From positions 1 to 20,021 of IMG/VR virus record IMGVR_UViG_3300044825_002175: a stretch of 20,021 nucleotides of DNA; one strand, 5' to 3'. This DNA comes from a virus. The stretch's first letter is position 1. Every line of letters starts with the position of its first letter. The translations under genes and the position numbers were made by a program. Of the stretch, positions 2-18,808 are shown in pieces. The notes under the pieces are model-generated. The model worked only from the letters and a program-made list of their open reading frames with translations. It was not told the DNA's origin and ran no database searches.

Positions 2-187
2 TTCGTAACCAGCCTGGACGTCGGGCTGACGCTGAACCAGGGGTTGCGTGCGGGCAAGAAGATCCTGGGCAAGCATGCGCGCATCAGCGCCCAGGTCGGT
101 GTCTACAACGAACTGCTGGGTGTCCTGTTCACCGTGCTACCGCCGCGACGGCGTCGAGATACTTCTGGCTCTCCGCCTCCCGCTTAG
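2..187 (+). CDS. C-terminal end of an unrecognised + strand protein (partial)
   Basis: The frame starting at base 2 stays open for 61 codons to a TAG at 185-187, with its start beyond the left edge. Through about base 135 it uses G or C at nearly every third position and reads like a real protein (for example GLRAGKKILGKHARIS and YNELLGVLFTVL), whereas the other + frames read as Pro/Arg/Gln-rich noise or hit stops, and the aligned - frame has a stop at 103-105. The last 19 codons lie antisense to the giant virion gene and give a low-quality Arg/Pro/Ser tail, so the original stop may have been lost or the gene may be cut by a recombination junction. I do not recognise the family. It would be the first gene of a convergent module to the left, or a neighbouring host gene if this is a prophage end. 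Confidence 0.5.
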   Translation, partial: FVTSLDVGLTLNQGLRAGKKILGKHARISAQVGVYNELLGVLFTVLPPRRRRDTSGSPPPA

Positions 188-3100
188 CCGCAATGATGTC
201 GAGCAGCTCGCGCTTTCGCTCGGGCGTGTTGTTGCTGTTGCGCACCGCCTTCTCCTGCTTCGACAAGTTCTGCAGGCGACCTTCGGCTGAGCGCAGCATC
301 GGGATGGTCTGCAGGTTCTCGATGTCTGCCAAGTACATCTTGGCGTCCTGCTTGCGCCCCTCGTTCATCATCTTGTCGTAGGTGGCCTTGACCTGATCGG
401 CGGCCTTGATCTTGGCGTACAGAATGTCAGTCGGCCCGTTGCCGTAGCGATCCTGGAAAGACGTGCCGATGAGCGGTGTCTCGGTCAGCTTACGCGCGGG
501 TTGCGCAGCATCCGGCGTGCCGAACACCTGGTTCATGGCGGCGGCCGCCATCACCGGCAGGCTGCCCAGGTAGCCCCGAGCCAGATGCTCGATCTGCAGT
601 GGTGACAGTTTCAGCGCGTCGGGTAGCATGTCGACCTGCAGCATCTCGGACATGCGTTTGGCCAGCTCCGTGGTGCGCGCGGTGTACCGTTCCTGCGGAT
701 CCAGGCCCTTCATGTTGGCGCCTTCGATCTCGCGCCCGGTGAAGAAGCTGTGGTTGGTGCCGACCTCGATGATCGGCTTGACCGCCTGCGGAATCAGGAA
801 GGAACTTCCACCAGGGATCTGGTTCAGGAACAGGTTGCGGATAGCCTTCCACTCCTGCTCGGTGGATTTGCCACGCATGAAGTCGATCAGTGCCTCGGGC
901 ACTGCCTTGAACAGCAGACCGACTTCGAACGGGATCGGCAGCTTGAGGGTGACGTCATTGGCCGGGTTCTTCGGGTCGCGGGACAGCGGCACGAACCAGT
1001 TGGCGTACCGGTCGCTGGCGCGCGCGTTCTTGTAGGTGTCGTCGTCTTCCATGGCCATGGCGTAGATCAGCGTGCCGGCCATCAGCATGCCGGCGCGGTC
1101 CCAGAACTTCTGCTGGATGCCGAGGCGCTCCTGCATCGACGCCTTGCCGGTCATGGCCTTGTGCAGCACGTTCAGACCCTGGATCTGGGCGTTGAAGAAC
1201 GGGATCAGCCGCGAGGCGTACTGCACACTGGGCGACAACCCGCGCTTGCTGAAGTTCATCATCTCCATGGCTGCCATCTCGGCCTCCATCTCGGAGCCCG
1301 TGCGCTTCAGCACGTCGTCGTACAGCTGCTGGCGGGTCACGGAGTCGGCGCGCATCGCAGCGCGGTCCATCATGGAGAACAGCTTGCCGAACGCCCCCTC
1401 GTTGCCGCCGGCAAGCTGCAGGGACATCTTCGACAGATCGTCCGGGTCGCCGGTGAAGATCCCGCTCTGTACAACCCCCTTGCGGATCAGCGCATCGGCG
1501 GTCGCGTCGTTGCGGCCGGCGGACTGCCGGGTGAAGGCAGCGATGGCCTTGGCGACAGCTGCCAGGGGCCCCCGGTCCAGGCCGCCGGTGAAGCTGGCGG
1601 CGAACGGGTCGCGGAATAGCTGTCGGGCCACGTACATGGGGTTGCGCGTCACGCCGGCGCGCAGCACATCACCCGCCCACCCGAATGCCTTGAGGAAGCT
1701 AGGCATGACGGTGTACGAACCCTCCAGGCTGCGCGCGACCATCTCGGACGGGATGCCTTCGGCGGCCGTGCCCTCGGTGTCGACAACGACGTGGTACTCC
1801 TCGCCGTCCTGCTTGAAGCGCAGCGCCTTGACATCCGCAGGCCCGTCACCGCGCTTGATGGCCATCTTCTTGGCCGGCTTCCCGATCTCCTGCAGCGCGT
1901 AGGCCACATTGCGGGTGGTCAGGTTGCGCATGCCCAGGTCGGTCAGCAGCATCACGTTGCGCGTGATCGACTCGTTGAGCGGCATCAGCTTGACGTCGCT
2001 GCCCTCCAGCGCCTTGAGGTACGGCTGCGTGCGGATGTCGCCCAGGCGGATCACCTTTGTCTCGTCGAACACGAACTCGGCCACACCGTCCGGGCGCACG
2101 CGGTAGTAGGGCACGTAGGTGTCGGAGGCGGTGTAGGCCGCCGCGTCCTTCTTGGAGATCGCACCGGTGTCGGCCAGGAACTTGATCATGCCGCGGTTCA
2201 GGTCGGCGTAGGTACGGGCCATGTCCTCCAGCGCAGCCTTCTGCTTCGGGTCGGCGGTCAGCTTGGCCAGGTCGGCCTTCAGTGCCTCGGGGGTCGCGCC
2301 TCCCTTGCCCAGGTCCAGCGCGAAAGCCGCCTTGGGGTCGGCCAGCGCACGCTTGGCGGTCAGGTAGACCTGCGCCTTCTCCATCTTCTCGGCGGCCGTC
2401 GCACCGCTGATCTTCTCGATTGCCTTGAACACGTCCTGCACAGACTTGCTGTTGCCGGCTTCGACGACGTAGCGCCCGCGCGCATCCTGCTTGAGTCCCA
2501 ACGCGCCGTGCTGGAACACGGAGTACACCTGGGGCATGCGCGCGTCGTTCTTGCGCACATAGTACATGGCCTGCTCGGCCAGGCGCTTGCTGCCCTTGGC
2601 CAGGGCTTCGCGCAGCGGCGCGCGCATGTCGACCGTGTGCATCTCGGCTGCCAGCGCCAGGTTGCCGCCGAGGCGGTCCTTGAACGTGCGCTCCTTGGCG
2701 ATCAGCTTGCCGACGGCATAGGGGCTATCTCCCTTGGCCGTGCGGTAGACGGCCGGGCCTTTCGGCCCGCTACCCTTTGGGCCGGGGGTGCCGTCCTGTA
2801 CGTGCTGGCGCGCGTTGGCGACGATCTGCTGGACTTCTTTGTCGGTGACGCCGCGCAGTCCGAGTGTCTTGGCCAGCCAGGCCTTGATGGCCTGGTAGAT
2901 TTGCTTGATCGCACTGGGGTTGCCACTCTCGGCCATGTCCGCCAGCGTCTCCTCGACCGCGATCTCACGCGACATCTTGGGGCTGGCTGCCATCTTGGCG
3001 TCCGCGGCCTTTTTGATGCTGGCGTTGCCGTTGTACAGCCGATTCATGGTTGACGCGTAGTCCGCGCCCATCATGTCGCGCAGGCCGTAGTGGCCGGCGA

Positions 3101-6100
3101 TCTCGTGTGCCACGGTCAGCGCCACGTCGTTTCCGTTGTGCAGGTTCTCCGCAACTAGGTACACCGTGCCGGTCTCGGGATCGAACACGCCCGGGATCTT
3201 GCCGGTCATGTTATCGGCCGCCGCTTGATCCTGCAACCGCTGGGGCAGCCCGGCTTCGGTATCGACCACGGTGATGGGTGGCGTGTTGGTCCAGCCATCG
3301 GTGATGCGATCGACCAGGCGCGTGACTTCGGCGGCCTTCATACCGGCGCCGGTGTTGGTGGCAGTGCGAAAAACTGCGGGCTTGCCTTCGTCGTAGTCCG
3401 CGCCAAACTGCTCACCTTTTTGCTCGGGGATGGCGCGCCCCTTGCTTGCCTTGGCCGCTTCGCGGGCTGCGCGTGCTTCTTCAATCTTGTCCAAGCGAGC
3501 CTGCTCGGCTTCTTCAGCCGCGGCTCTTGCGCGCTCCGCCGCCGCACGGTTGCCTTCGCGCATGGCTTGCTTGGCGGTGGGCTGGCGCACCTGCCCAGAC
3601 TCCTGCACGCGCCGGCGCGTACCCGTCTTGTTCTCACCGGCGCGGCTTTCCGGAGAACCCGTGCGCATATCGCCGGCAACTTTCTCAGGTCCAACTAGCG
3701 GGCCGCGCCCGCGCCGACCTTCCTTGGCAGCCATCTCCGCGGCAAACACCTCGAACACGTTGCCCTGCAACTCGCGTTCTTTGGGTTCCGCGGCACGCTC
3801 CGCCTTGCGCGCTTTCTGCAGCTCCGCCAGCTTGGTGTTGACCATGTCCAAGCGATACTGCAGCGCGGCCACCTTGGCTTCGTTGAGCTTCAGCCGGGCT
3901 TTGGCGCGGGCGTTGCTGGGCTTCCCGAACAAGGTACTCTTGAGCGGGCTGCGCACCGGCAGGGGAACCACCGCACCGGGGTCTTTGTCGCGGGCAGCCA
4001 CAGCGTCAGCGATCTGGTTCTCCAACGAACCCTGCACTTTCTTCAGTGCGCCAATGTCCGCGATACCGTCAATGCGTTGCTGGAACGCTACGTTCTTGGG
4101 ATCTTTCTCTCGCGCCGCTACTGCCGCGTCTGCCGCCTGTTCTGCGTCACTGCTGCGACGCGGCGACATCTGCGTTTGCTGCAGCGCAAGCTGGCGGGCG
4201 ACCGAAGCCAAGCCGACAGACGGCTGCTCAACCGGTGTGCCGGTTGCCTCTGCCTCGACAAGCTGCTGGTACTCCTTTGCAGGCAGCGCGTCGATCTCCC
4301 GCGCCAACTGCATCTTGCGGGTCTCGATACCGTCCGCCGCAGCCCGCGCATCCATGTAGTCACGCTTGGCCTTGACCGCCTTGTCGTAGTCGCTGAGCGC
4401 GTCGTAGTAGGACGCCGGCATTCCGTTGTCGGGATTGCGGAGGTATTGCGTGCGTGCTGCTTCTGTTGCACGCGCAGCAGCGTCGATGGCAGCATCCAGC
4501 TTGGCCTGCTCTTTTAGGTCGATCGCGGAGAGCGCAACCAGCAAGCCGCGCTTGCGCTGCATGTCAGCGTAGTCGGGTGCGGCGCCTGTGTTCGGCGCAG
4601 CGGGTGTCCCTGCCGGCACGCGGGCCGCGTGTGTCAGCTGGCCGCGTTCTTCTTGGCGGCCGGCGGGCACAGTCAACTGCTGGATCTGCCGCACACGGTT
4701 CGTCAACTGCTCATAGGCATTGTTGAGCTGCTGGCGTTGCGCCCGAATCATGCTCTCCGCGATGCGAGCGTTCTTCATACCGGCGCTGTCGCGCAGCAAG
4801 TTACCGGGCGTGTCCGCGGTGCGAGAGCGATAGTCTGCGTTCACTGCAGCAAGCGCGTCTTCGGTCTCTTTCAACCCCCGCGTGGCCTCGGCCTTTGCCT
4901 TGCCTTTCGAGCCCGGCGATGCCAGCACGCGTTTCCACCAGTCGCGCTTGAGCTCCAGCGTGCGCACCCGGCGCTCGTGCTTGACGCGTTCTGCGCGCTG
5001 GGTGGCCACCACCATGCCGGCCTGCTGCGTCTCCAGACGCGGACTGGAGATACCCTGCGCTTCGAGTCCTTCCAGCACCGACGTAACAAAGTCGAAGCGC
5101 GCTTCCAGGTCCTGCATCGCGCTGGGATAGCGCAGAAGGTTGCGGAAGTCCTGTGACACGACGTCCTTGATGTCGACAACAGAATCCGCGATTGCCTGAA
5201 GATCGCCCGACAACCGCTCGATGTCTTTGCGCAGCGCTTCCTGCTGTTCTTCCAGTGCGGACTTCTTGCCAGCACGCATGGCTTCGGCGCTGTCGATCAC
5301 GTCCTGGCGCATCCGCCGGGCCTCTGCCAACTGCCGCCGCGCCGCAGCGGCCTGCTGCCCCAGCTCCGCTTCCTTGGCTTGTGCCGCCGCGAGACGCTGC
5401 TCCAGCACTTCGAGCTTGGATGCGCGTGCAGGGATGGCCGCCTGTGCGGATTCAACACGTTCGCGTTTTGCGCGGTTGGCGTCCGCCACTTCTTTCTTTG
5501 CCTGTGCAAGGTCTTTGTTGAACGCTTCGACACGCGCCTGCACATCGACCGCCGCTTTGAGTCGAACGACGGTGTCGAACATGTCCGCGTAATGCGACCC
5601 GAGCACAGCCTCGAACGCGGGGCGTTGCTTGAAGTACGCCTGCATGTCGTCGCGCGTCAGTGAGCCGGAACCCATCAGACTTGCAAGCGCGGTGCGTGCC
5701 TTTTGTTCTTGCGGCGCCGCCTTGGCATCTCCGCTCAACAGGGTGAGCAGTTTGCTCAATGCCGCGTCCAGCTCGGCTTCCGTTGCGGCAGGGCTAGTCT
5801 TGATGTAGTGCACCAACGAGCGATACTGCTCCGCATCTCGCAAGCGTCCTACACGCGATTCAACTTCTTCGAGTGCTTCCTTGGCGTTCGCGACGCGAAG
5901 CAAAGCCCGAGCGTCGCCCTGCCGTTGATCCCACAGCGCGCGCACTGCTGGAGGTGCGTCGTTCGGAAGCGCTGCGGCTTGTTGCCGCGCAAAAGAAATG
6001 AGCTGCTCTGCTTCCGCGGCGGACAAATCAGCGTCCATGGCCGACCGCACTTCGTTGTACCGCTCGGTTGCGGCAGCGATCGCCTTTGCGTTTTCCTCGT

Positions 6101-9100
6101 CCTGAATCGGAAGCGAGTCTGTGCTCGGCTGCCCACCGCGCGGATTGCGGATCATGTCGGGCTCGTTTTGTGTTTCTAGCTGCCCGATACCCGTTGTTAT
6201 TTTTGCCGGATTGGGAATGAACTCCGGTTCGTTTTGCCGCAGCGACTCGTTCCGGTCTTCCTCCGCACGCTCGGCGGCGGCCTGGGCCATGGCCAGCTCG
6301 TTGCGCCGTGCCACAGCATCTCCGAGCGCAGTCTCCAGGCGAACCAGCGTACCCTCGGCCTGCCGCACCAGGTCGTAGACCGGGGTCTCAACGCCGTACA
6401 CGCTGTCCCAGAAATCAAACGACTGCTGGTCCTCGGGGGCAAGATCCAGTGTAATGTCGTCGATTTCCGCAGCGTTCGTCAGTTCCTTGCCGCGCACAGA
6501 CTCTGCGTTGGGGCGGTTGCGGCGCTCAACCGTTGCCGACGTAGAGACCGTTGGCATCTTGCTCCCGCCCGGCCCTTGCACCGTGTCGGTGGTCGCCGTA
6601 GATGCGGCCGTGCGAACAGGGGAGATAACCTGCTGTGTCCCTGGTTCGGCATTGACGTAGCCGACTTCCCCAACCTTGGTGTAGCCGGGCGCGTACGCGC
6701 CACCTTTAGCGGGCGTTTGCGCAGCGATCTGTTCTTGCGTCGGGTTGGGGTTGGCCTGCTGCGCCTTGGTCAGCCCCTTGTTCGCGGGCGGCACCCACAC
6801 AGGCTGCACCGCCCGGTTCTCGACCGGGACGGTTTCCTTAGAAGTCGTCCGCGCCAACTGCTGCGCCAGCGCAGCCATCTCCTGCTGAAGCTGCTGTACC
6901 TTCTGCCGTGCGGCCGCAAACGTCGGTGCGCCCTGGAACGTGCCGGGGGCTGCCTTCTTCTCCGGCTCGATACGCGCCAGCGCGGCTGCTTCTTCTCGTG
7001 CGGCGTTGAGCTCTTTCTGCTTGTCCGCCAGAACTTGCTTGATGCCTTCTCGCGTGTCGACCTGCTGGCGCGCGCCTTCGCCCAGATTGGCCATGCGATC
7101 GAGCTGGTCTCGGATGGCATCGAGGATTTCTGGACGGGTCGGTGTACGCGCCAACAGCGGGTTGGATAGCGCACGTTCGTAGTTGTCCAGCGCCTGTTTG
7201 CCCTGCGCAGACATGTTGGGGCGCAAGCGCAGCGACTCGATACGCTGCAACAGGTCGGACTCGGGTGTAACACCCGGGATCGTGCCGCCGGGGCCAATCT
7301 CCGGGAACAGGCTCTCCTGCTGCGTCTCGGGCGCGGGGGCCGTGTTCTGCTCGGATACCGCGCGCTGCGCGTCGGGGCCTGGTTTGCGGTACTTCTCCCG
7401 CGGACCGCCGTCGCCCCGCGGCCGCGCGCGCATGTTGATGCTTGCGTCCAGGATCGGGGTTTCGCGAGGGCGCCACCCCGTCTGTACCGGCGTGGCGGCG
7501 GACGCCGCCGGCGCTGGGGGTGCCTCTGCTTGCGTTTGGGTCTCCTCGTCCTGCACCTGCGAAACTTGCGTGGCGGGCGGGGCTTCCAGCAAACGCACGC
7601 GCTCGCGTTGCGCCGCGTGCAGCTTCTCCAACTCGACGCGCAGCGCCTCGGCCTGGCCCATCTTGCCGGACTGCACCGCGACGCCGTACTGCTTCGTCAG
7701 CCGGTCGATTTGCTGCTGGCTGTCGGGCGGAGCCTGCGTGGTAGCGCCAGCCACCTTCCGGTCACCGAGCTGCTTCTCCAGTGCTTTGGCGCGGCGCAAC
7801 AGCTGCGCCGCCTGCTCCTGTGCAGCCTTGGCCGTAGCCATGTCGCCCTTCTTGGCTGCTTCCAACGCCTGCTTGACCGCCGCGGCCTGCTGTTGGTACA
7901 GCACGTCGCGTTCGGCAGTCATCTGCTGCACAGCGCCCGGGCCGGCGTCGTAGGACTCGCCGGAGTCGGACACCGCGGTTGCCTGGGCTTTCTCCTGCGC
8001 AGCCTGGAACGCCTGATCCTGCATTGCCTTCAGCGTCGGGCGCACAGCAGCTGCCTCGACCTCTAGCTCCTTGAGGTTGTCCTCGTAGAACTGATCTGCG
8101 GCAGCCTGCTGTGCCTCGCGTTCCAGCTTGTCCGCACCGGTGGCGTCCGCACCCAGCTTGCCCGGCAACATGGCTTGATGCTGTGCGTAGAGCTGGTTGT
8201 ACTGGTCGTTGATCTTCTGGGCGTACGCCGGGTCCTGCCGCTGGGCGGCCTTCTGCTGCTCCTCCTGCTGGCGCAGGGCGGCCGCGTCCTGCTCGGCCTT
8301 GATCCGCTTCTGCTCCTCGATCTGGGCAGCTTGGAGCTGCTCGCGACCACGCTCGTGGAACCGCCCGGGCCCGGCCAAGGCGCCGCCAAGCGCCGCGCCA
8401 CCGATGAAGTTCTGCAAGTACGCCTCGCGTGCAGCCTCGTCGTTCAGCGCCAGTCCGGCCTGCAGCCGCTCGAACACCTGCTGGGATGCCTCGGTCAGAC
8501 CCTCGACACCCGACGCCTTGACGCCGGACTTGGCGTAGTCAGCCAGCGTTGCCTTGAGCCCCTGCTTCGCGATCTCGGCGGCGGCCTTTGGGGTCAGCTC
8601 CTTGCCGGCAGCAGCGAAGATCCGGCGGATGCCAGGGATCATCTTGAAGCCGACGACGTCCAGCGCGGCCTGCGGAACCGCGGCCAGAGCTGCGGCGCCG
8701 AGATCCGTGTCAGCGAGCTTCTTGCCGGTGTCCTGCTGAGCAGCCAGATTGGATGCCGTGAATTGCCCGGCGGAGGCCAACCCCGCCGCGCCGGCGGCAA
8801 CCAAGGCCGGGGCGCCAGCGAACGCAGCGCCCGCACCTGCAGCAAGAGGGGCTGCCATGTATGGCAACGAACCGCCGGCAGTCTCCGCCAGCTTGGCCAT
8901 GGGCGAGTCGAACCAGGTGCCCTCGGTGGGCTTGAACACCCGTGCGGCTTCCGCCTTGTTGCGTGCCTGCTGTTCTTCGGCGGCCTTGATGGACATCAGC
9001 CCCGAGCGCCCGGCCAGCCCAGCGAGGCTGCCCTTGAGGTCTTCCCACCCGGCCTTCATCGCCGGGATGAAGCCGGACTTGGCTGTGCTCGGCGCCGCAG

Positions 9101-9221
9101 CGGCAGCCCCCGAAGCGACCGCCTGCTCCATCAGCGCCTGGGCTTGCTCGGGCGTCGTGCCCTCGGGCACCTCAAACCGGGCGATGCGCCCGTCGGGCAT
9201 TTGGAAGCGTGCGATGGGCAT
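129..9221 (-). CDS. Giant polyvalent virion/ejection protein with metallopeptidase and LPD38-like regions (3030 aa)
   Basis: Residues 1-35 carry the MP-A-RFQMPDGR...FEVPEGTTPEQAQ leader seen at the start of many phage virion proteins. Residues about 118-195 and 271-285 are Ala/Gly-rich and hydrophobic, as in internal virion or ejection proteins. From about 290 to 1930 lie long Ala/Glu/Gln/Arg coiled coils broken by Pro/Gln-rich linkers. A zincin-type metallopeptidase domain spans about 1955-2155, with HEIAGHYG (H2039, E2040, H2043) and a likely third zinc ligand in VEETLADMAE (E2090 or E2091). About 2190-2480 matches the region that commonly precedes LPD38 in phage giants (MYYVRKNDARM). The C-terminal part resembles LPD38, with RNPMYVARQLFRDPFAAS near 2525-2543 and a hydrophobic stretch near 2706-2722. 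Domain names come from memory of polyvalent protein families, not a search. Its ATG shares one base with the preceding stop (TAATG). The likely role is delivery into the host with the genome; peptidase activity is inferred. Confidence 0.85.
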   Translation of the reverse strand: MPIARFQMPDGRIARFEVPEGTTPEQAQALMEQAVASGAAAAAPSTAKSGFIPAMKAGWEDLKGSLAGLAGRSGLMSIKAAEEQQARNKAEAARVFKPTEGTWFDSPMAKLAETAGGSLPYMAAPLAAGAGAAFAGAPALVAAGAAGLASAGQFTASNLAAQQDTGKKLADTDLGAAALAAVPQAALDVVGFKMIPGIRRIFAAAGKELTPKAAAEIAKQGLKATLADYAKSGVKASGVEGLTEASQQVFERLQAGLALNDEAAREAYLQNFIGGAALGGALAGPGRFHERGREQLQAAQIEEQKRIKAEQDAAALRQQEEQQKAAQRQDPAYAQKINDQYNQLYAQHQAMLPGKLGADATGADKLEREAQQAAADQFYEDNLKELEVEAAAVRPTLKAMQDQAFQAAQEKAQATAVSDSGESYDAGPGAVQQMTAERDVLYQQQAAAVKQALEAAKKGDMATAKAAQEQAAQLLRRAKALEKQLGDRKVAGATTQAPPDSQQQIDRLTKQYGVAVQSGKMGQAEALRVELEKLHAAQRERVRLLEAPPATQVSQVQDEETQTQAEAPPAPAASAATPVQTGWRPRETPILDASINMRARPRGDGGPREKYRKPGPDAQRAVSEQNTAPAPETQQESLFPEIGPGGTIPGVTPESDLLQRIESLRLRPNMSAQGKQALDNYERALSNPLLARTPTRPEILDAIRDQLDRMANLGEGARQQVDTREGIKQVLADKQKELNAAREEAAALARIEPEKKAAPGTFQGAPTFAAARQKVQQLQQEMAALAQQLARTTSKETVPVENRAVQPVWVPPANKGLTKAQQANPNPTQEQIAAQTPAKGGAYAPGYTKVGEVGYVNAEPGTQQVISPVRTAASTATTDTVQGPGGSKMPTVSTSATVERRNRPNAESVRGKELTNAAEIDDITLDLAPEDQQSFDFWDSVYGVETPVYDLVRQAEGTLVRLETALGDAVARRNELAMAQAAAERAEEDRNESLRQNEPEFIPNPAKITTGIGQLETQNEPDMIRNPRGGQPSTDSLPIQDEENAKAIAAATERYNEVRSAMDADLSAAEAEQLISFARQQAAALPNDAPPAVRALWDQRQGDARALLRVANAKEALEEVESRVGRLRDAEQYRSLVHYIKTSPAATEAELDAALSKLLTLLSGDAKAAPQEQKARTALASLMGSGSLTRDDMQAYFKQRPAFEAVLGSHYADMFDTVVRLKAAVDVQARVEAFNKDLAQAKKEVADANRAKRERVESAQAAIPARASKLEVLEQRLAAAQAKEAELGQQAAAARRQLAEARRMRQDVIDSAEAMRAGKKSALEEQQEALRKDIERLSGDLQAIADSVVDIKDVVSQDFRNLLRYPSAMQDLEARFDFVTSVLEGLEAQGISSPRLETQQAGMVVATQRAERVKHERRVRTLELKRDWWKRVLASPGSKGKAKAEATRGLKETEDALAAVNADYRSRTADTPGNLLRDSAGMKNARIAESMIRAQRQQLNNAYEQLTNRVRQIQQLTVPAGRQEERGQLTHAARVPAGTPAAPNTGAAPDYADMQRKRGLLVALSAIDLKEQAKLDAAIDAAARATEAARTQYLRNPDNGMPASYYDALSDYDKAVKAKRDYMDARAAADGIETRKMQLAREIDALPAKEYQQLVEAEATGTPVEQPSVGLASVARQLALQQTQMSPRRSSDAEQAADAAVAAREKDPKNVAFQQRIDGIADIGALKKVQGSLENQIADAVAARDKDPGAVVPLPVRSPLKSTLFGKPSNARAKARLKLNEAKVAALQYRLDMVNTKLAELQKARKAERAAEPKERELQGNVFEVFAAEMAAKEGRRGRGPLVGPEKVAGDMRTGSPESRAGENKTGTRRRVQESGQVRQPTAKQAMREGNRAAAERARAAAEEAEQARLDKIEEARAAREAAKASKGRAIPEQKGEQFGADYDEGKPAVFRTATNTGAGMKAAEVTRLVDRITDGWTNTPPITVVDTEAGLPQRLQDQAAADNMTGKIPGVFDPETGTVYLVAENLHNGNDVALTVAHEIAGHYGLRDMMGADYASTMNRLYNGNASIKKAADAKMAASPKMSREIAVEETLADMAESGNPSAIKQIYQAIKAWLAKTLGLRGVTDKEVQQIVANARQHVQDGTPGPKGSGPKGPAVYRTAKGDSPYAVGKLIAKERTFKDRLGGNLALAAEMHTVDMRAPLREALAKGSKRLAEQAMYYVRKNDARMPQVYSVFQHGALGLKQDARGRYVVEAGNSKSVQDVFKAIEKISGATAAEKMEKAQVYLTAKRALADPKAAFALDLGKGGATPEALKADLAKLTADPKQKAALEDMARTYADLNRGMIKFLADTGAISKKDAAAYTASDTYVPYYRVRPDGVAEFVFDETKVIRLGDIRTQPYLKALEGSDVKLMPLNESITRNVMLLTDLGMRNLTTRNVAYALQEIGKPAKKMAIKRGDGPADVKALRFKQDGEEYHVVVDTEGTAAEGIPSEMVARSLEGSYTVMPSFLKAFGWAGDVLRAGVTRNPMYVARQLFRDPFAASFTGGLDRGPLAAVAKAIAAFTRQSAGRNDATADALIRKGVVQSGIFTGDPDDLSKMSLQLAGGNEGAFGKLFSMMDRAAMRADSVTRQQLYDDVLKRTGSEMEAEMAAMEMMNFSKRGLSPSVQYASRLIPFFNAQIQGLNVLHKAMTGKASMQERLGIQQKFWDRAGMLMAGTLIYAMAMEDDDTYKNARASDRYANWFVPLSRDPKNPANDVTLKLPIPFEVGLLFKAVPEALIDFMRGKSTEQEWKAIRNLFLNQIPGGSSFLIPQAVKPIIEVGTNHSFFTGREIEGANMKGLDPQERYTARTTELAKRMSEMLQVDMLPDALKLSPLQIEHLARGYLGSLPVMAAAAMNQVFGTPDAAQPARKLTETPLIGTSFQDRYGNGPTDILYAKIKAADQVKATYDKMMNEGRKQDAKMYLADIENLQTIPMLRSAEGRLQNLSKQEKAVRNSNNTPERKRELLDIIAAKREAESQKYLDAVAAVAR
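6142..6236 (-). repeat. Imperfect 29-base direct repeat inside the giant gene
   Basis: Two 29-base copies at 6142-6170 and 6208-6236 match at 22 positions and lie 66 bases apart, exactly 22 codons. They code the decapeptides QNEPEFIPNP (residues 996-1005) and QNEPDMIRNP (1018-1027) in a linker between coiled-coil segments. The stretch around them is poorer in G+C than the rest of the gene. It may be a short linear binding motif or just slippage in a linker. Confidence 0.6.
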
Positions 9222-10693
9222 TATTCGAACCCGAGGAATTTGACGCCGCCGCTGGGCGCAGCCGGCGACGCCGGCTTGCCCGCAATACTAGCACGGACCT
9301 CTCGTTCTGCCTGCGCCCGCGCTTGAGCTTCCGGCATCGGATTGAACGGATCCGCCTTCATGAGCTGCGCGGTACGCGACTGAATCTTGGCCTCGACCTG
9401 CACCGGGTTCGGCGGTTTCACTCCAGCAGCGATACCCGACCGTCCGGCCTTGTTTGCTCTGATCGTCTCCACAACCGGCTTCGTGTCGCGGGTGTAAGCG
9501 GTCTGTGCGTCGTAGTAGCCTGCCTGCGCCTCCTGCAGCTTCTCCGTCGACTTCTGTGCAGCAATCTGTTTCTGCAGCGCCGCTGCCTCTTGCTCCAGCT
9601 TGTACGCCGCCGCATTGTTGCCAAGCTGGCGCTCGACCTGGGCCTGCTGGATGAGGATGTCTGCCTTGTCGTAGGCTTCCTTGACCGACGCCATCTGCTC
9701 CTGCCGGGCCTTGTCCTTGCCGTGCATGGCCAGCGCACCGGCACCCAGCGCCTGAGCCGCACTGCTGCCGCCCTTGGCGGACACACCGGCGAGAAACTCC
9801 ATGACCCGATCGAACTTGCTGGGGGTCAGGTTCTTCACCTTGGCGTTGTACGCGGCCTCCAGCTGCTTGCGCGACAGCTCGTCGAGCTCGTCACGCTTCT
9901 TCTGAAGCGGCTCCTGCTTGGCCAGGAAAACGCGCAGCTGGCTGTCTGACATGGTGGATGCGTCGGGCAGGTCGGGCATGCCCGCACCCTCCTGGCGCTG
10001 CATGCGTTTCTTGGGATCGAACGGTCCGTCGGACGGAGGCGACGCCGGAGCCGCGACGGCAGCGATGCCAGAGTAGCTGGGCTTACGCACAGTGGCCTTG
10101 TTTGTCGCCGGCGAGCGTGCCTGCACAGGCTCGGGGTAGGCACTACCAGCCTGCTGCGCCTCGCGGATAGACACCGTGTCAGGGTATGCCGGTGCTTCTG
10201 GTTTTGCCGGTGCGTTGCCTTTCCACTGGAACAGGTCCCCAAGCGAAGACATCGCGCGGTCGAACGGGCTGTCGCCGCGGAACAACGGCGCGCTGGCACC
10301 TGCCCCCCCACCCGGCATAAGCGATCTGAAAAAAGCGTTGCGCTGCTCCGTGTTGCGTTGTTTGTATAGTCGCTGCTGTTCTTCGAGCGACATCTTGTCG
10401 GGCTCGTTCCAGCTTCCGTCTTGCCCCGAAAACGCCCGGCCGCCGCCGGCGTACGCAGCGATCCCGCTCTGCGGGGCTTCTAGGTTGCCGACGAGCTGCT
10501 CGAGTACCGGCAGCGTGTCGCCTTGGCCCATGGCCGTCTCGTTGGCCATGCCTTGTGCGTAGGCCTTCTTGTCCGTCAGCTCCTTGAGCGCGGCCACCGC
10601 CTCGAAGTCACCCTGCATGGCCAGTGCCTGCAGTTGCGGCACGTTACCGGCAAGTTTGGCCTTCATGACGGCCATGCTGCTCTGAAGGCTCAT
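9221..10693 (-). CDS. Virion-associated protein with coiled coil (490 aa), function unknown
   Basis: I place the start at ATG 10693, which overlaps the previous stop by four bases (ATGA). The frame stays open for 29 further codons upstream, but that part is antisense-like and runs inside the neighbouring gene. The N-terminus is helical. A GIAAYAGGG motif follows near residue 78, of a type common in late proteins of this phage group, then a Pro/Ala-rich disordered stretch and an Ala/Gln/Lys/Glu coiled coil over roughly residues 265-410. The end is Pro/Ala-rich and finishes with KFLGFE. There is no signal peptide or catalytic motif. It lies directly upstream of the giant gene and is coupled to it by a TAATG overlap, so I infer a virion or ejection component that acts with the giant. 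The family is familiar in style but I cannot name it. Confidence 0.75.
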   Translation of the reverse strand: MSLQSSMAVMKAKLAGNVPQLQALAMQGDFEAVAALKELTDKKAYAQGMANETAMGQGDTLPVLEQLVGNLEAPQSGIAAYAGGGRAFSGQDGSWNEPDKMSLEEQQRLYKQRNTEQRNAFFRSLMPGGGAGASAPLFRGDSPFDRAMSSLGDLFQWKGNAPAKPEAPAYPDTVSIREAQQAGSAYPEPVQARSPATNKATVRKPSYSGIAAVAAPASPPSDGPFDPKKRMQRQEGAGMPDLPDASTMSDSQLRVFLAKQEPLQKKRDELDELSRKQLEAAYNAKVKNLTPSKFDRVMEFLAGVSAKGGSSAAQALGAGALAMHGKDKARQEQMASVKEAYDKADILIQQAQVERQLGNNAAAYKLEQEAAALQKQIAAQKSTEKLQEAQAGYYDAQTAYTRDTKPVVETIRANKAGRSGIAAGVKPPNPVQVEAKIQSRTAQLMKADPFNPMPEAQARAQAEREVRASIAGKPASPAAPSGGVKFLGFE

Positions 10694-11646
10694 GACAGGC
10701 TCCCGTAGAGTTGCGCCACGCGCCCGGCGCCAAGACCCCCCACGCTCCCGCGCTCGGGGATGTGCCCGCCGCCAGCCCACAGGTCGAACAGGCTGCCCAG
10801 GCCGCCGATCGCAGACCCGATGCCAGCCAGATCCGACGCCCAGTTGGACGTCGGCGAGCTCTGCTGCGTCTGCGTGGTGGTGCTACCCGGGAAACCCGAC
10901 ACCATGTTGCGCATGAACGTGAGCTGATCGTACGGGTGCTGCTGGGTGTTGAGCCAATCTTGATACCCGGTATCCAGCCCTTTCTGCTGTGTCTGCTGGT
11001 CTAGCAGGCCGGCGGTCGACTGCAGGCCGAAGGCCGTCTTGCCCATCTCACCAAGCGCCTCGCCGCCCTTGATCGCGGCCTGCGAACCGAACTGACGGTC
11101 CTGCTGCTGCCGGGTTGCGTCGGCGTTGTACTGCTGCTGGGCCTGCTGCCAGGACGTGTTGAGCCCTTGCGTTTGGATGTCGTTCAGGCGCTGGGCCAGG
11201 TTCCGATCGGCTTCTGCCTCGATGACGCCGTGCCGGCTGCCGCCAAACGCACCGGCCTTGGCTGCTGCCGAGTCCCGCCCGGTCTGAGCGATCTGGTCAT
11301 CGCGCACAGCCTCCCGCTTGGCGATGTCCGTCACGCCTTGCTGGTACGGGCTCATGTACTGCTGCGCCGCAGCAAGACCGAAGGAGCCTGTCGCCGGAGT
11401 GTAGTTGGCGCCGCGCCCGAGCATGCCCGCGCCCTGCGACATCATGCTCCCTGCATGCAGACCGGACACGGACGTGCCCGCTTGCTCCTGCAGCGGTGTC
11501 AGACCTGCCACCCGGGAACCGGTATAACTCGGTGCCGGGTTGTTCGCGGTCAGCGCCTGCGAACGCGCGAACAGATCCGAGACGTACGGCTCGATGTAGC
11601 CTGGAAGCGACGAATTTGTCGTGGTCGTGGTTGTTCCGTCTGCCAT
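10690..11646 (-). CDS. Virion-associated protein (318 aa), function unknown
   Basis: The N-terminus is Thr-rich, followed by LPGYIEPYVSDLFARSQAL and a YTGSRVAGLTPLQEQA segment (residues 41-56). The central region has KAGAFGGSRHGVIEAEADRN (130-149), then a Gln-rich helical stretch (155-190). This arrangement recurs in proteins encoded just before giant virion proteins in short-tailed phages, where they are listed as structural or hypothetical. The C-terminal third has Thr/Gln/Ser-rich linkers, a Gly-rich hydrophobic helix (268-290) and AGGGHIPERG (291-300). The start is well supported by an ideal ribosome-binding site at 11651-11656. I infer a packaged structural or ejection protein; no enzymatic motif is visible. 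Confidence 0.8.
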   Translation of the reverse strand: MADGTTTTTTNSSLPGYIEPYVSDLFARSQALTANNPAPSYTGSRVAGLTPLQEQAGTSVSGLHAGSMMSQGAGMLGRGANYTPATGSFGLAAAQQYMSPYQQGVTDIAKREAVRDDQIAQTGRDSAAAKAGAFGGSRHGVIEAEADRNLAQRLNDIQTQGLNTSWQQAQQQYNADATRQQQDRQFGSQAAIKGGEALGEMGKTAFGLQSTAGLLDQQTQQKGLDTGYQDWLNTQQHPYDQLTFMRNMVSGFPGSTTTQTQQSSPTSNWASDLAGIGSAIGGLGSLFDLWAGGGHIPERGSVGGLGAGRVAQLYGSLS

Positions 11647-11650
11647 GATT

Positions 11651-11656
11651 CCTCCT
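11651..11656 (-). promoter_or_regulatory. Strong ribosome-binding site for the 318-aa virion protein
   Basis: A full AGGAGG lies four bases before the ATG at 11646 and overlaps the TAG stop (11655-11657) of the preceding gene. It is one of the strongest such sites in the operon, and this is one of the few junctions where the genes do not overlap. Confidence 0.8.
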
Positions 11657-12656
11657 ACGCGGGCATGACCTTGGCCGGGTCCACTGGCCGAATCTGCTCG
11701 CTCTTGCCGTGCGCCATCTGGCGGATGCGCTCCATCATCTGATACAGCATGTCCGCACCAGCCTTGGACGAACCGCCGCCCAGACCAGACACCACGTCGG
11801 CGGGGATGACAAACTCCCCGTCCGCCAGACGACCTTCGCCGCCATCATCCATCTTGACCGGGACATCGTCAGACAACCCGGTGCCGCCGCCCTGGACGAA
11901 ACGAGGCTGCAACGGTGCGCCGGCGGCGATGCCGCTCGGAGCCTGGCCGCCGCCTGCCATCCGGAAGGTCTGGCCGGACGTGTACCCCATGGGGTTGGCG
12001 CCGCCACCGACGTTGGTCAGCGTGTACTGCCGGGCAACCGGGTCCCAGACGTAGCGCCGCATGCCGGCGTCGGCCGGCGCAGCCGGTGTGGTCTGCGTGG
12101 GGGCAGAGGAGCCGAACGGGTTGGCCGTGCCTGCCCCGATGCCGGAGCTGTCACCCATCCCGCTCTCCTGTGGGACTGACGCCGGCATCGAGATACCGAA
12201 CCGCGCAGAGTCGCTCTCCCGCGCGGCCCGATCGGCCTTTGCGTACTCGAGCGCTGTGCCGAGGCCAGCCGCGAGCATACCGAACGTACCGGGCACCTTC
12301 CCCGCAATGCCGAGTGCCTCGATCACGCGATCCATTGTGGTAGGAGCCGACGTGGGGGTGGGTGTGTTTTCTCCGGGCGTTGGAGCAAACGCAGCGTTGT
12401 TGACGGTGCCCGGCGCTTGCCCTGGTTCCGGACCACTGCCGCCCGTCGGGCTGCCCCCACCGAAAGCCGCGTCATTGACGACACCCGGGGCTTGTCCTGG
12501 CTCGGGGTTGCTCACATCCGGCCCGTTGAACCCGCCAACACTCGGCGAACCGTCCGGGCGTCCCGCATCCGCGTTGCCTTCGGGGTCGGCATCACCGCCG
12601 TTGTAAAACCGGCGCTTGCGGGGTTTCTTGGCTGCCAGAATTTTTGCCAGGCTCAT
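11655..12656 (-). CDS. Disordered virion-associated protein with GEFVIPADVV motif (333 aa)
   Basis: After a basic start (KKPRKRR, residues 10-16) the first hundred residues are Gly/Pro/Asn-rich and hold a duplicated 15-residue unit (51-65 and 76-90). A helical, Ala/Gly-rich segment (108-148) is followed by another disordered stretch and a RYVWDPVARQYTLTNV segment (201-216). The C-terminal part carries GLSDDVPVKMDDG (260-272), GEFVIPADVV (280-289) and a Gly-rich then helical end (291-315). This GTG-SDD-P...GEFVIPADVV pattern recurs in phage late proteins next to tail and ejection genes, but to my knowledge its function is not established. The ATG overlaps the stop of the fibre gene by four bases. 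Probable minor virion protein. Confidence 0.8.
   Translation of the reverse strand: MSLAKILAAKKPRKRRFYNGGDADPEGNADAGRPDGSPSVGGFNGPDVSNPEPGQAPGVVNDAAFGGGSPTGGSGPEPGQAPGTVNNAAFAPTPGENTPTPTSAPTTMDRVIEALGIAGKVPGTFGMLAAGLGTALEYAKADRAARESDSARFGISMPASVPQESGMGDSSGIGAGTANPFGSSAPTQTTPAAPADAGMRRYVWDPVARQYTLTNVGGGANPMGYTSGQTFRMAGGGQAPSGIAAGAPLQPRFVQGGGTGLSDDVPVKMDDGGEGRLADGEFVIPADVVSGLGGGSSKAGADMLYQMMERIRQMAHGKSEQIRPVDPAKVMPA
12387..12506 (-). repeat. Duplicated 45-base unit in the 333-aa virion protein gene
   Basis: Copies at 12387-12431 and 12462-12506 each code a 15-residue unit of the form PEPGQAPG-x-V-N-x-AAF. The copies have diverged at the DNA level mainly at synonymous positions, so the duplication is old or the peptide is under selection. 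Confidence 0.7.
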
Positions 12657-13600
12657 GCTTTTCCCTCCAGCGCTTCCACGCGTGCCTTGAGTTCCTTGAT
12701 TGCGTTCACCAGAATAGGTACCAGGGACGACTCGTTGTACTTCAGATTATCCGGGTCTTCGTCGTCGATGACAACGCCTGTGTCCTCCAACGCGCGAATC
12801 TCCTGCGCCAGGAAGCCGTACTTGAGGCGCCCCACGGGCGTGTCGACACCGCGTTCAGTCCGAAACCGGTACTGCACCGGGTACAGGCGGTCCACAAAAT
12901 CAAGGCCGTGCGGCACACACCCGTAGACCAACTTGTCGCGCGCGTCGGACGTAACCGTCCAGGCGATCTTGATGTAGGCATTGGTGTGGCTGTTGTTGCC
13001 CATGACGATGCGATTGTTTTCGCCCGAGGCAACAATATGCACCGCGTCGCTGCCGGAATTTGAGCCGACTGCGATGTTGTTGTCCCCGTCCGCCGCATTC
13101 AGTGCGCCCCACCCGATCGCCACATTGTCGCTGCCGGACACGTTGCTTTCCAGGGCGAAGCCGATCGCCACGTTCGACACCCCATCCTCCACAAGCAGCG
13201 CGGCGTAGTTGCCGAGCGCCGTGTTGTTCTCCCCAGACGTCAACGCACTGAGCGCGCCTTGGCCGTACGCCGTGTTGTTGACGGCTGGAGCAACCGCTGA
13301 CTGCATTGAATCCGCACCGAACAACACGTTCGACGCGTCCGCCACAGTACCCGCAACTGCTCCGTTCAAGTCAGGGTTGACCGTGGTGATGAGCTGCCCG
13401 GTCCCGGTATCGACCGTCAGCGCCGACGACGCACCGAAGTCGCCAGCGTCGTTGTACTGCAGCTCTCCCGTTGCTCCCGCCGGCGTGATCGCCGTCCGCA
13501 GACGGTCGAAGTAGCTGCGCAGCGCGCCCAGCATCATGTCGAAATACTGTCGGTTGTACTCCGGCGGGGCGTTGCCGAGAACAGGCGGGTTGACCTTCAT
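12653..13600 (-). CDS. Tail fibre/spike with YadA-head-like repeats and S74 intramolecular chaperone (315 aa)
   Basis: The N-terminus (residues 1-40) probably attaches to the virion. Residues 108-200 hold spaced copies of an N-[TV]-A-x-G motif (NNTAYG 108, NNTALG 125, NVAIG 143 and 159, NIAVG 175) at 16-18 residue intervals, the pattern of left-handed beta-roll YadA-type heads, which form trimers. The C-terminus is a peptidase S74 chaperone domain: TSDARDK (217-223) with the expected Ser218/Lys223 dyad, then GLDFVDRLYPVQYRFR, GFLAQEI (262-268) and a terminal coiled coil (292-313). In this family the domain assists trimerisation and cuts itself off, probably just before Ser218. The ATG overlaps the preceding stop by four bases and has GGGAGG upstream. 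It is a receptor-binding candidate, short for a fibre. Confidence 0.88.
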   Translation of the reverse strand: MKVNPPVLGNAPPEYNRQYFDMMLGALRSYFDRLRTAITPAGATGELQYNDAGDFGASSALTVDTGTGQLITTVNPDLNGAVAGTVADASNVLFGADSMQSAVAPAVNNTAYGQGALSALTSGENNTALGNYAALLVEDGVSNVAIGFALESNVSGSDNVAIGWGALNAADGDNNIAVGSNSGSDAVHIVASGENNRIVMGNNSHTNAYIKIAWTVTSDARDKLVYGCVPHGLDFVDRLYPVQYRFRTERGVDTPVGRLKYGFLAQEIRALEDTGVVIDDEDPDNLKYNESSLVPILVNAIKELKARVEALEGKA

Positions 13601-15441
13601 GCGCGCCTCCCGTCCGGTCGTACATCCAGTCGTGGGGTGCCGAGTTTCCAGTGCACGCCCGTTGTGTCCGAGCCAACACGTAGCGCCATCTGGCGCCCGC
13701 GGGTGCGTACAAACAGCTGCTGCGTGAACTGTTCGACGTCATCCGTGGACGTCTGCGATACCGCCTGCGTGATCTCCGCGTTGTATGGCGCGCCGGGATT
13801 GTTCCGGGTGCGCACGGTGAAGTTGAGCGCCGGTGTGGTGCTCGTAGATCCCGTGAACGTGACGTCCGGGAGAATCCGTCGCACGAAGCCCAGGTTGTGT
13901 CCGTCACCGATGTCGAAGTCCGCCGACTGGATGTATGCGTCCATGGCCACCGAAGCAGCCGTCGAGTTGTCGTCCAACCCGTACTCGTGCATGACGACGT
14001 TGCTGACGTACGTGGCAGCCAGCGGGCCCTGCTTCAGACCGGTGTCAAGCCACGCGCTGCGCGTCAGCTCGCCGTAGAACCACAGATTCTCCGAGTAGTT
14101 GTACACGACATACCGATCCGGTTGCGTGCTCGCCTCGCTTGGGTAGAACCACCAAACCTCGGAAAACCCCTCGTTCGTGCCCGCAAAAACCTGCTGCCCC
14201 TGCGCGCGGTTGATGTCGTCGTACACCTGGTCGGACACCGGGCAGTCAAGCGTCTGCACCCGACCGTCGAAGATATAGAACTTGTCGTGACCCATCCAAT
14301 ACGCCACGCCGTTGGCCTCGACGATGCCGTACGGGCTGATGGTCGAGATGTTGCTGGACTGCTGCGTGAACGAGAACACGAACGGCGCCCCGACGTACTG
14401 CATGGTGTACGCCGCCGTGTCGGTCAGGATGAAAATCTCTTGCCGCAGGTTGATAGCCGACACGATGTTGGAGCCCGTGGGCAGCGTGTACTCTCCGGCC
14501 TGGTTGGTCGCCGCCGGCGCCCACTCGACCAGGCTCTCCGCGTCGCTCCAGCGAACCAGCAGCGGGTTGTATTCGGTGTCCCCGTAGGAGTTCGTGCTGA
14601 ACAACACAAGGATCCGCGCGGCCTGCTCGAACAGCATGTGGAACTGGAACAGCGGAACGGACGATGCGCCGGGGAGCGACGAGAGCAGCACGCCGCGGTC
14701 GTACGTCGTCGGTGTTGCGTTGGGTGTCCACAGATATGGCGCGCCGCCGCGCGGGCCGAACACGAGCTGCTCGCCGTACGGCACCTGTGTCCAGACCCGC
14801 ATCTCCGTGGACGCAACCGATGCGCCCCACACGCCTGAGCTATAGGTACCCGTGCCGTACGTGCCGGACGACGTCGTCGACAGTTCGTTGCCGATGTTGA
14901 GCTGGTACGCAAACACGCCGTTGCCGCCCGTGGCCGAACTGGTGGCCGTGGCGCCGACGACAATCGTGTAGTTGTCCGCATCCACGTACGTGATTTGGAA
15001 CTCGCCGTTGAACGACGCCGCAGGGATGCCGCCCACAGCCGCCAGCGAACCCGAGATCGTGACGAAGTCGCCTGTGATGGCTCCGTGCGCCGTGTCGTTC
15101 ACTTCGACGACCGCCGACAGATTCGTCGTCGTGAACGCGTTGGCTGCGATGGTCGCTGTGTCGCGGATCGGGGTCACGTCGTTGTAGTTGCCGCCGCCCT
15201 CGATGTACATCTTCAGGTGCGTGCCGACACCCGTTTGGATCACGCCGGCAAGAGTCTGCCACGACGCCAACGATCGGCACACACCCTGGTATACCGACGC
15301 GGAGATACGCGCCCAGCCGCCGATCTTCTCCGGGAACCCCGTGCGAAACCGCACCAGGTTGCACGAATACCAGCCGCCCTCGTTCGCAAGGGTGGTGATG
15401 TTCCGGATGATGCCCGGCTTGAATTGCAGTTTTTGGAGCAT
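13597..15441 (-). CDS. P22 gp10-like tail/DNA-stabilisation protein (614 aa)
   Basis: The start, with FKPGI (7-11), NEGGWYSCNLVRFR (20-33) and PEKIGGW (37-43), and the end, with FVRTRGRQMALRV and a LGTPRLDVRPDGRR tail, match the conserved ends of the packaged-DNA stabilisation (gp10-like) family of short-tailed phages, as I remember it. The middle is beta-rich with recurring short W/Y/F-rich segments, consistent with a propeller-like body. In P22, gp10 follows the portal-adaptor ring, seals the head after packaging and extends the tail nozzle; the same role is inferred here. The ATG begins two bases after the Rz stop, and the upstream ribosome site is weak (GGGAA), so translation may be coupled. 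Confidence 0.8.
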   Translation of the reverse strand: MLQKLQFKPGIIRNITTLANEGGWYSCNLVRFRTGFPEKIGGWARISASVYQGVCRSLASWQTLAGVIQTGVGTHLKMYIEGGGNYNDVTPIRDTATIAANAFTTTNLSAVVEVNDTAHGAITGDFVTISGSLAAVGGIPAASFNGEFQITYVDADNYTIVVGATATSSATGGNGVFAYQLNIGNELSTTSSGTYGTGTYSSGVWGASVASTEMRVWTQVPYGEQLVFGPRGGAPYLWTPNATPTTYDRGVLLSSLPGASSVPLFQFHMLFEQAARILVLFSTNSYGDTEYNPLLVRWSDAESLVEWAPAATNQAGEYTLPTGSNIVSAINLRQEIFILTDTAAYTMQYVGAPFVFSFTQQSSNISTISPYGIVEANGVAYWMGHDKFYIFDGRVQTLDCPVSDQVYDDINRAQGQQVFAGTNEGFSEVWWFYPSEASTQPDRYVVYNYSENLWFYGELTRSAWLDTGLKQGPLAATYVSNVVMHEYGLDDNSTAASVAMDAYIQSADFDIGDGHNLGFVRRILPDVTFTGSTSTTPALNFTVRTRNNPGAPYNAEITQAVSQTSTDDVEQFTQQLFVRTRGRQMALRVGSDTTGVHWKLGTPRLDVRPDGRRA

Positions 15442-15442
15442 G

Positions 15443-15916
15443 CTATTTCCCGTTGAGGCGCTGCCTCAAGGCGTCGTACCTGGCTTTGCAGGTTTCGGCG
15501 GCAACGTGTAGTCGAGCTGCGTCGGCAGCATACCTCTCAAGAAATTCTGCATCTCCTGCTGCCAGTTGCGCTCCGGTAGCTCCAACACAAGCGGGGGGAT
15601 CTCCGGGATTGGCGCTGGGGGCTGGACGATCGGGGCGCTTGCGCAGCTCGCCAAGAGCAGCGTTGAGACGGCGATCCACATCCGATAGCTGTGCATTCTT
15701 GACTCCTTCCAGGACCAGGGCGTCCGACATGATGTTGAGCCCGCGCTGCGTTGCTTCGAGATGCGCCTGCATGGCCGCCTTCTCTTGTGCGGCCTGTCGG
15801 AGATCCGCCTTGTCGCCCTCGTACTGTACGCCCTTCACAAAACCGAACGCGACCAGCGCAGCCGCAAGCAGCACAACCGCCAGGATCCGGTAGGGCATCG
15901 GCACGAGGTTGAGCAT
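15443..15916 (-). CDS. Rz: i-spanin, Rz-like inner-membrane subunit (157 aa)
   Basis: ATG 15916 shares one base with the endolysin stop (TGATG), so I prefer it over a longer frame that starts inside the endolysin gene. A hydrophobic signal anchor covers about residues 9-28, preceded by MPYR; the rest is periplasmic, with helical coiled-coil-forming stretches (about 35-85 and 120-155) around a Pro-rich break with a Cys (PPACVG). This is the type II membrane topology of Rz. It pairs with the outer-membrane lipoprotein coded inside it to fuse the two membranes in the last step of lysis of a Gram-negative host. Confidence 0.85.
   Translation of the reverse strand: MLNLVPMPYRILAVVLLAAALVAFGFVKGVQYEGDKADLRQAAQEKAAMQAHLEATQRGLNIMSDALVLEGVKNAQLSDVDRRLNAALGELRKRPDRPAPSANPGDPPACVGATGAQLAAGDAEFLERYAADAARLHVAAETCKARYDALRQRLNGK
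15466..15696 (-). CDS. Rz1: o-spanin, Rz1-like lipoprotein nested inside Rz (76 aa)
   Basis: The gene is wholly contained in the Rz gene in another frame. MHSYRMWIAVSTLLLASC is a lipoprotein signal peptide with lipobox LASC and predicted lipidated Cys18. The mature part is Pro-rich (PPAPIPEIPP and PPKPAKP), as is usual for Rz1, and would reach from the outer membrane toward the periplasmic domain of Rz. A strong AAGGAG site six bases before the ATG supports independent translation. Confidence 0.88.
   Translation of the reverse strand: MHSYRMWIAVSTLLLASCASAPIVQPPAPIPEIPPLVLELPERNWQQEMQNFLRGMLPTQLDYTLPPKPAKPGTTP
15703..15708 (-). promoter_or_regulatory. Ribosome-binding site for the nested Rz1 gene
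   Basis: AAGGAG lies six bases before ATG 15696, inside the Rz coding sequence. It decides the start and argues that the nested frame is a real gene. Confidence 0.8.
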
Positions 15917-16386
15917 CACGTAAACCCCGTCTCGAACAGATCGCGCTCCGACTTGCGCCGGCGCACCAGACCCGCCATGACACGCCCGTCGTTCTTCGTC
16001 CATCGCTCGAACTGCACGGCTGCGCCGTGGTAATCCCCGGAGTTGAGCATGCGCAGCAGCGTCGAGTCCCCCAGGCCTTCGGCCACCGTGTCCGTGTCCT
16101 CATCGGCCCCAACATTGAACACGAACGACACCAGCGCATCGAACTGTGACTGCGTCAAAGGCACCTTGACCAGGCGCAGGACTGCTGACTCGGCCGCCCG
16201 CACATCCTCGCGCAGCCAAGCGTCCGCCTGCTCCAGCGTGCAGGTGTCACCGCGCTTCACCCCGCGGGTGTGACCGTAGCCGATCGTCCAGGGGTTGCCA
16301 TCCACCGAGCCCGGGTCCGGGTACGCATGCAGCCGCACGCCCTCGTGCTCCTTGATCAGCGCCAGGCCTTCTTCACTTGTTTGCAT
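15916..16386 (-). CDS. Endolysin, GH24 lysozyme (156 aa)
   Basis: This is a T4/P22-type muramidase that cuts the MurNAc-GlcNAc bond of peptidoglycan. The active site is clear: E15 in KEHEG, D24 in YPDPG and T34 in WTIGYGHT, with a four-residue insertion between the last two compared with T4 lysozyme. QFDALVSFVFNVG (81-93) and AGLVRRRKSERDLF (138-151) are further family hallmarks. There is no signal peptide or signal-arrest-release anchor, so it should be cytoplasmic and depend on a holin for access to the wall. The start overlaps the end of the upstream holin candidate by 14 bases. Confidence 0.93.
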   Translation of the reverse strand: MQTSEEGLALIKEHEGVRLHAYPDPGSVDGNPWTIGYGHTRGVKRGDTCTLEQADAWLREDVRAAESAVLRLVKVPLTQSQFDALVSFVFNVGADEDTDTVAEGLGDSTLLRMLNSGDYHGAAVQFERWTKNDGRVMAGLVRRRKSERDLFETGFT

Positions 16387-18804: not shown

Positions 18805-18808
18805 ATGT

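Follow-up and report, generated by a model that had tools for sequence, protein, structure and literature searches.

Large phage proteins that combine a zincin metallopeptidase (MPTase) with an LPD38 domain have been described among the polyvalent proteins (Iyer et al. 2017, PMC5512222), and that study already includes HExxxH variants of the zincin motif. Gp69 of the Bcep22-like Burkholderia phage JC1, a "DarB-like" protein of 4515 aa, carries a zincin about 1050 residues from its C-terminus, preceded by domains of lytic transglycosylase-like, methylase/helicase-like and LPD3 type (PMC9144972). In the vRNAP of phage N4 (gp50), a giant ejected protein, a zincin-motif domain (C1) and, after it, a large region of helices (C2) close the chain (PMC12633501). 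What zincins do in ejected phage proteins may be either self-processing or attack on the host. The HExxxH spacing with a downstream glutamate is also found in MATCAP/TMCP and DPP III (PMC10499314), cellular enzymes that have other known substrates.

The peptidase and the LPD38-containing C-terminal module (C-module) of the giant protein analyzed here, P0001, are homologous to those of JC1 gp69, and both giants occupy a similar place at the end of a morphogenesis module; however, no domain was recognized ahead of the P0001 peptidase, and its motif is HExxxH rather than the HExxH of gp69. As in the polyvalent MPTase proteins, a zincin and LPD38 are joined in one large phage protein, but P0001 lacks a match to the Pfam family MPTase-PolyVal, and an obligate, exchanged slot such as that described below did not surface in the parts of PMC5512222 consulted or in our literature searches. 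The C1 domain of N4 gp50 is related to one of the peptidase types of the P0001 family (type iii), whereas the type i zincin and the C-module of P0001 itself have no significant profile similarity to N4, and searches of Pfam, NCBIfam and PHROGs gave P0001, unlike gp50, no polymerase match that would mark it as an N4-type vRNAP. With MATCAP/TMCP and DPP III, the P0001 peptidase shares the motif spacing and the downstream glutamate, but no sequence similarity to them was found.

Genomic Context of P0001

The window, that is, the whole stretch of DNA analyzed, is an entire viral contig of 20,021 bases. The preliminary description had reported an uninterrupted frame of 3030 residues at positions 129-9221, at the end of a phage late operon. 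Both statements held, as the frame starts with ATG, lies on the minus strand (left unstated earlier) and closes a co-directional, podovirus-type run of virion genes:

129..9221, minus strand: giant gene P0001, 3030 aa from an ATG, the final complete gene of its operon within the contig
9221..10693, minus strand: P0002, 490 aa from an internal ATG, no family, stop overlapping the P0001 start
10690..11646, minus strand: P0003, DNA ejection protein family (phrog_4287, E 3.3e-18)
11655..12656, minus strand: P0004, last 80 residues conserved across 37 loci, no family
12653..13600, minus strand: P0005, tail fibre or spike with Peptidase_S74 chaperone (family match)
13597..15441, minus strand: P0006, virion structural protein (phrog_3287), a relative of proteins annotated as phage stabilization proteins
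15443..16003, minus strand: P0007, weak Rz-like spanin match (family match)
17254..18984, minus strand: P0008, tail fibre protein (family match)

The stop of P0002 and the start of P0001 overlap as TAATG. P0003, located two genes upstream of P0001, has relatives in 53 of the fetched loci, and JC1 has a comparable gene order that likewise ends in its own giant. The C-terminal 80 residues of P0004 are 45-50% conserved in the best of the 37 loci, where they lie upstream of such giants, and P0004 is likely a further virion protein. At the contig edge (19420-20019), a 200-aa minus-strand frame has no Pfam match.

Domain Layout of P0001

Comparison with relatives, composition and profile searches divide P0001 as follows:

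Residues 1-397 (8031..9221, minus strand): constant N-terminal module, leader and Ala/Gly-rich segments, 40-77% identity in relatives
Residues 398-1944 (3390..8030, minus strand): variable interior, Ala/Gln/Glu/Lys-rich with short heptad stretches only (comparison with relatives; composition)
Residues 1945-2165 (2727..3389, minus strand): peptidase slot, putative type i HExxxH zincin (conservation, predicted fold)
Residues 2172-3030 (132..2708, minus strand): constant C-module, 860 aa, conserved in relatives
Residues 2727-2917 (471..1043, minus strand): LPD38 (PF18857), profile match

The leader and Ala/Gly-rich segment proposed earlier (residues ~1-397) are borne out by this conservation. Since no 19-residue window of P0001 exceeds 1.6 on the Kyte-Doolittle scale, its hydrophobic segments are not strong transmembrane predictions. 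The claim of about 1600 residues of coiled coil was overstated: the heptad signal is restricted to parts of the interior, where it stands out against shuffled sequences only at residues 901-1000 (z 3.3) and 1301-1400 (z 3.6) and is weak at 701-800, 1201-1300 and 1601-1700 (z 1.6-1.7), the remaining windows being rich in Ala, Gln, Glu and Lys with no standout heptad signal. Coiled-coil-type matches to WDCP and to NCBIfam ASRP were weak and below cut-off, and were treated as compositional.

Profile search recovered the predicted LPD38-like C-terminus (E 8.6e-30, 104.7 bits against a cut-off of 27), and LPD38 was likewise matched in 34 of the 34 relatives scanned. The combination of a zincin and LPD38 in one phage polypeptide supports the suggestion, based on sequence, that P0001 belongs with the phage-type polyvalent proteins; one relative (L079) combines a zincin, ART-PolyVal and LPD38. 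A DarB/antirestriction identity was considered and rejected because neither a methylase nor a helicase was found in P0001.

A part in the ejection channel had also been raised in the preliminary description. The C-module could be a channel core like that of T7 gp16 or the PhiM1 TEP, making the giant a cargo-carrying channel subunit, an arrangement compatible with any role of the peptidase. The DNA ejection family gene P0003 nearby would suit such a channel, and the combined model matched the PhiM1 ejectosome chain 8vb2_A over 204 residues (rmsd 5.9), albeit weakly, its Z of 6.4 being under the tool's informative level. When the C-module was folded alone, however, 8vb2 was not among the matches listed, although the Foldseek candidates may have lacked that chain. 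Neither the T7 gp16 nor the N4 C2 profile is significantly similar to the C-module, and while some motifs look alike by eye, homology is not claimed. We give a channel core a fairly low probability.

The Peptidase of P0001

The candidate catalytic residues lie within the slot:

Residues 2039-2044 (3090..3107, minus strand): HEIAGH metal-binding motif (conservation)
E2090/E2091 of AVEETLADMAE (2949..2954, minus strand): putative third metal ligand, E2091 falling in a near-invariant column

An HEIAGHYG metallopeptidase had been proposed, to be checked by profile search for MPTase-PolyVal and LPD38. The motif at residue 2039 is indeed conserved and a zincin core is predicted for the region, but the spacing is HExxxH, not HExxH, and LPD38 was the only one of the two families found: MPTase-PolyVal (PF18818) gave no match to P0001 at E<=10 and was also unmatched in scans of P0001, the peptidase region and 34 relatives. 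Alignment of 25 HExxxH relatives (A2) revealed that the H, E and H of the motif (H115/E116/H120), like the G two positions further along, never vary, and that type i peptidases have a near-invariant Glu 51-52 residues downstream of the motif (E167).

In the predicted structure, the peptidase region adopts a zincin core with the order helix-strands-helix-helix (pLDDT about 75-90). Lethal factor is its best fold match (Z 7.6), and MATCAP, itself an HExxxH enzyme, was also among the matches listed (Z 5.9); as both fall below the tool's caution level of Z 8, they support rather than prove a zincin. With Foldseek alone, neither P0001 model matched a PDB entry at E<=0.001, and sequence-profile searches of the PDB gave chance matches only. 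That the motif is not a product of chance is indicated by the invariance of H/E/H/G and by its confinement to the slot across 62 relatives. Conservation, the model and profile homology to the JC1 gp69 zincin together support the assignment of the slot as a zincin-like metallopeptidase of the gluzincin type with putative activity.

Constant Ends and Variable Interior

A first scan of viral metagenomes with the C-terminus yielded 45 loci, and a profile scan yielded 405 relatives; the 80 best were retained. Over the C-terminal 690-860 residues, identity to the window protein is typically 45-50%, falling to 30-38% in the most distant relatives, with a mean column identity of 65% in the alignment of this region (A1). 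In the comparison with relative L002, P0001 is 92-100% identical over residues 61-300 and 85-100% over 2220-3000, as against about 20-30% over most of residues 400-2160. Constant ends of this kind mark what a protein may need for packaging and ejection and are thus useful for studying phage protein delivery.

No relatives of the P0001 N-terminus were found at E<=0.01 among 50,697 phage records. Relatives of the C-terminal region were not found in plasmids, and none were confirmed in a pattern search of genome contigs; the absence from genome contigs would be expected of phages without a prophage state, though it does not prove one lacking.

An Obligate Slot Filled by Four Peptidase Types

Inspection of the 62 distinct relatives that cover the slot, the window included, revealed that the slot is filled in every one: each has exactly one HE..H or HE...H motif before the C-module, and no further copy occurs anywhere in their 170,182 residues. 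The motifs fall into four types:

Type i, HExxGHxG (the window protein): n=19
Type ii, HEVG[VA]H: n=17
Type iii, HExxH[AQ]-like, mostly HExxHAA: n=21
Type iv, HELIGH: n=5

The set used for the tree was built from rows with a motif, and the rows left out were examined separately. Rows without a motif are cut off at or near the C-module, apart from L025 and five others; the five have their motif ~1030-1050 residues upstream of the C-module, and all were kept in the tree set. L034 has the motif and stands outside the set solely because its 3' end is cut. In L025 (6684-9269), a C-module follows unrelated DNA, with no recognizable cargo or N-terminus; it may be a chimera, a split gene or a true exception to the filled slot.

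Types i, ii and iv can be aligned with one another, and their joint profile matches JC1 gp69, whereas the type iii profile matches the N4 vRNAP zincin (97.1%, 5.8e-11); the likeness between the two groups is marginal (57.7%). The downstream Glu is invariant in the type iii alignment as well. These patterns bear on the proposal that the peptidase fold is mainly structural, a bead for packaging or tail passage with little or no proteolysis. In N4, encapsidation is reported to need a region that includes the zincin (PMC5512222), and the vRNAP is proposed to travel through the tail like beads on a string (PMC12633501). However, even very divergent types retain H, E, H and a downstream Glu, as expected of an active enzyme, and we consider a mainly structural role improbable.

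Repeated Exchange of the Peptidase Block

On a tree of the C-modules of the 62 relatives, the peptidase type changes at least 19 times (least possible 3; shuffled mean 32.1), and the starred branches alone force 13 (type iii), 12 (type i) and 9 (type ii) changes; these parsimony counts derive from a rapidly built tree, and they could be too high if C-modules have recombined internally or contigs are chimeric. In three pairs (L024/L012, L075/L097 and L037/L114), only the peptidase block region has been exchanged, with DNA identities of 70-87% upstream, 43-59% within and 79-97% downstream of the block. In other pairs, including the window and L002, the entire interior differs between the constant ends. 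The exchanged block takes in the linker to the C-terminal chassis.

It was this exchange, above all, that the preliminary description missed, along with the minus strand and the HExxxH spacing. Polyvalent proteins, LPD38 and HExxxH zincins have been described before (PMC5512222), but an obligate, repeatedly exchanged slot between constant ends is new in that we found no earlier account in the open-access papers searched, although priority is unproven.

Frequent exchange of enzyme type within near-identical backbones would also be expected if host targets were under diversifying selection. P0001 might accordingly be a delivered effector whose peptidase cuts a host protein, for example one of defence or of the envelope, with the slot being exchanged, as in polymorphic toxins, when host targets differ or evolve. 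Such a role is listed as a possibility by Iyer et al. (PMC5512222), and an ADP-ribosyltransferase, a typical effector enzyme, adjoins the peptidase in L079. Nevertheless, no relative has an empty slot and the slot always precedes the C-module, an arrangement more natural for a general task than for a weapon that could be dispensed with, and we hold a host target to be the less likely reading. With similar reserve, the slot may be seen as an evolved exchange site for delivered proteases, at which the whole block is replaced at once, in the manner of a polymorphic toxin's tip, as host targets shift.

Probable Delivery and Proposed Function

Delivery with the virion, as the preliminary description had supposed, is well supported, albeit indirectly. 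JC1 gp69 has been identified in CsCl-purified virions by 51 unique peptides (PMC9144972), and hhalign relates both the peptidase (97.7%, 2e-12) and the C-module (96.7%, 4.5e-10) of P0001 to it; a neighbour from an ejection family, P0003, is also present. Ejection is also known for the N4 vRNAP (PMC12633501), a giant whose zincin is related to type iii. Because the homologous gp69 is found in virions and the N4 vRNAP is ejected, P0001 is likely packaged in the virion and ejected with the DNA.

On balance, we think it slightly more likely than not that P0001 is a giant ejected virion protein with a constant delivery chassis, an exchangeable interior and an obligate zincin that cuts its own chain after delivery. 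The giant would be packaged inside the podovirus head and ejected along with the DNA. Its chassis would consist of the N-terminal ~400 and the C-terminal ~860 residues (with LPD38), held constant on either side of the exchangeable interior, and the slot ahead of the C-terminal chassis would always hold a zincin (here HExxxH), sometimes followed by an ADP-ribosyltransferase or another extra block. After delivery, the peptidase would act by cutting its own chain near the slot, each exchanged block bringing its own cleavage site and thereby freeing the cargo from the chassis. Counting against this explanation are the single homologue from which we infer packaging and the C-module of L025, which has no recognizable cargo upstream.

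If the delivery reading is right, cleavage in cis is itself an evenly poised proposition or slightly less. It is slightly favoured over a host target because of the obligate place of the enzyme beside the chassis and because the linker is exchanged along with it. The N4 vRNAP is reported to be packaged unprocessed (PMC5512222), and therefore any cleavage comes later or not at all. Near-identical backbones with different peptidases constitute a natural experiment, in which comparison of cleavage and host range would separate self-processing from attack on the host.

Additional Sequences in the Slot Region

Several relatives carry further sequence near the peptidase. In L079 (8494-9213), a type i peptidase is followed, ahead of the C-module, by an ADP-ribosyltransferase (ART-PolyVal, E 3.6e-28), and type ii proteins, e.g., that of L010, have a TWHGS start that may belong to a divergent ADP-ribosyltransferase. 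About 870 extra residues separate the type iii peptidase from the C-module in L091 (6388-9144) and also in L082, L099, L102 and L112; this block contains a WCTG...YKNGKP stretch and has no Pfam match in L091. Twin-arginine-like stretches follow the peptidase motif in L043 (8150-8920; RRKLLKGAAAAMATPVMP) and L011 (8966-9655; RRTFLRGAVSAVGQMYLP), that of L043 sitting between the HELIGH motif and the downstream Glu region.
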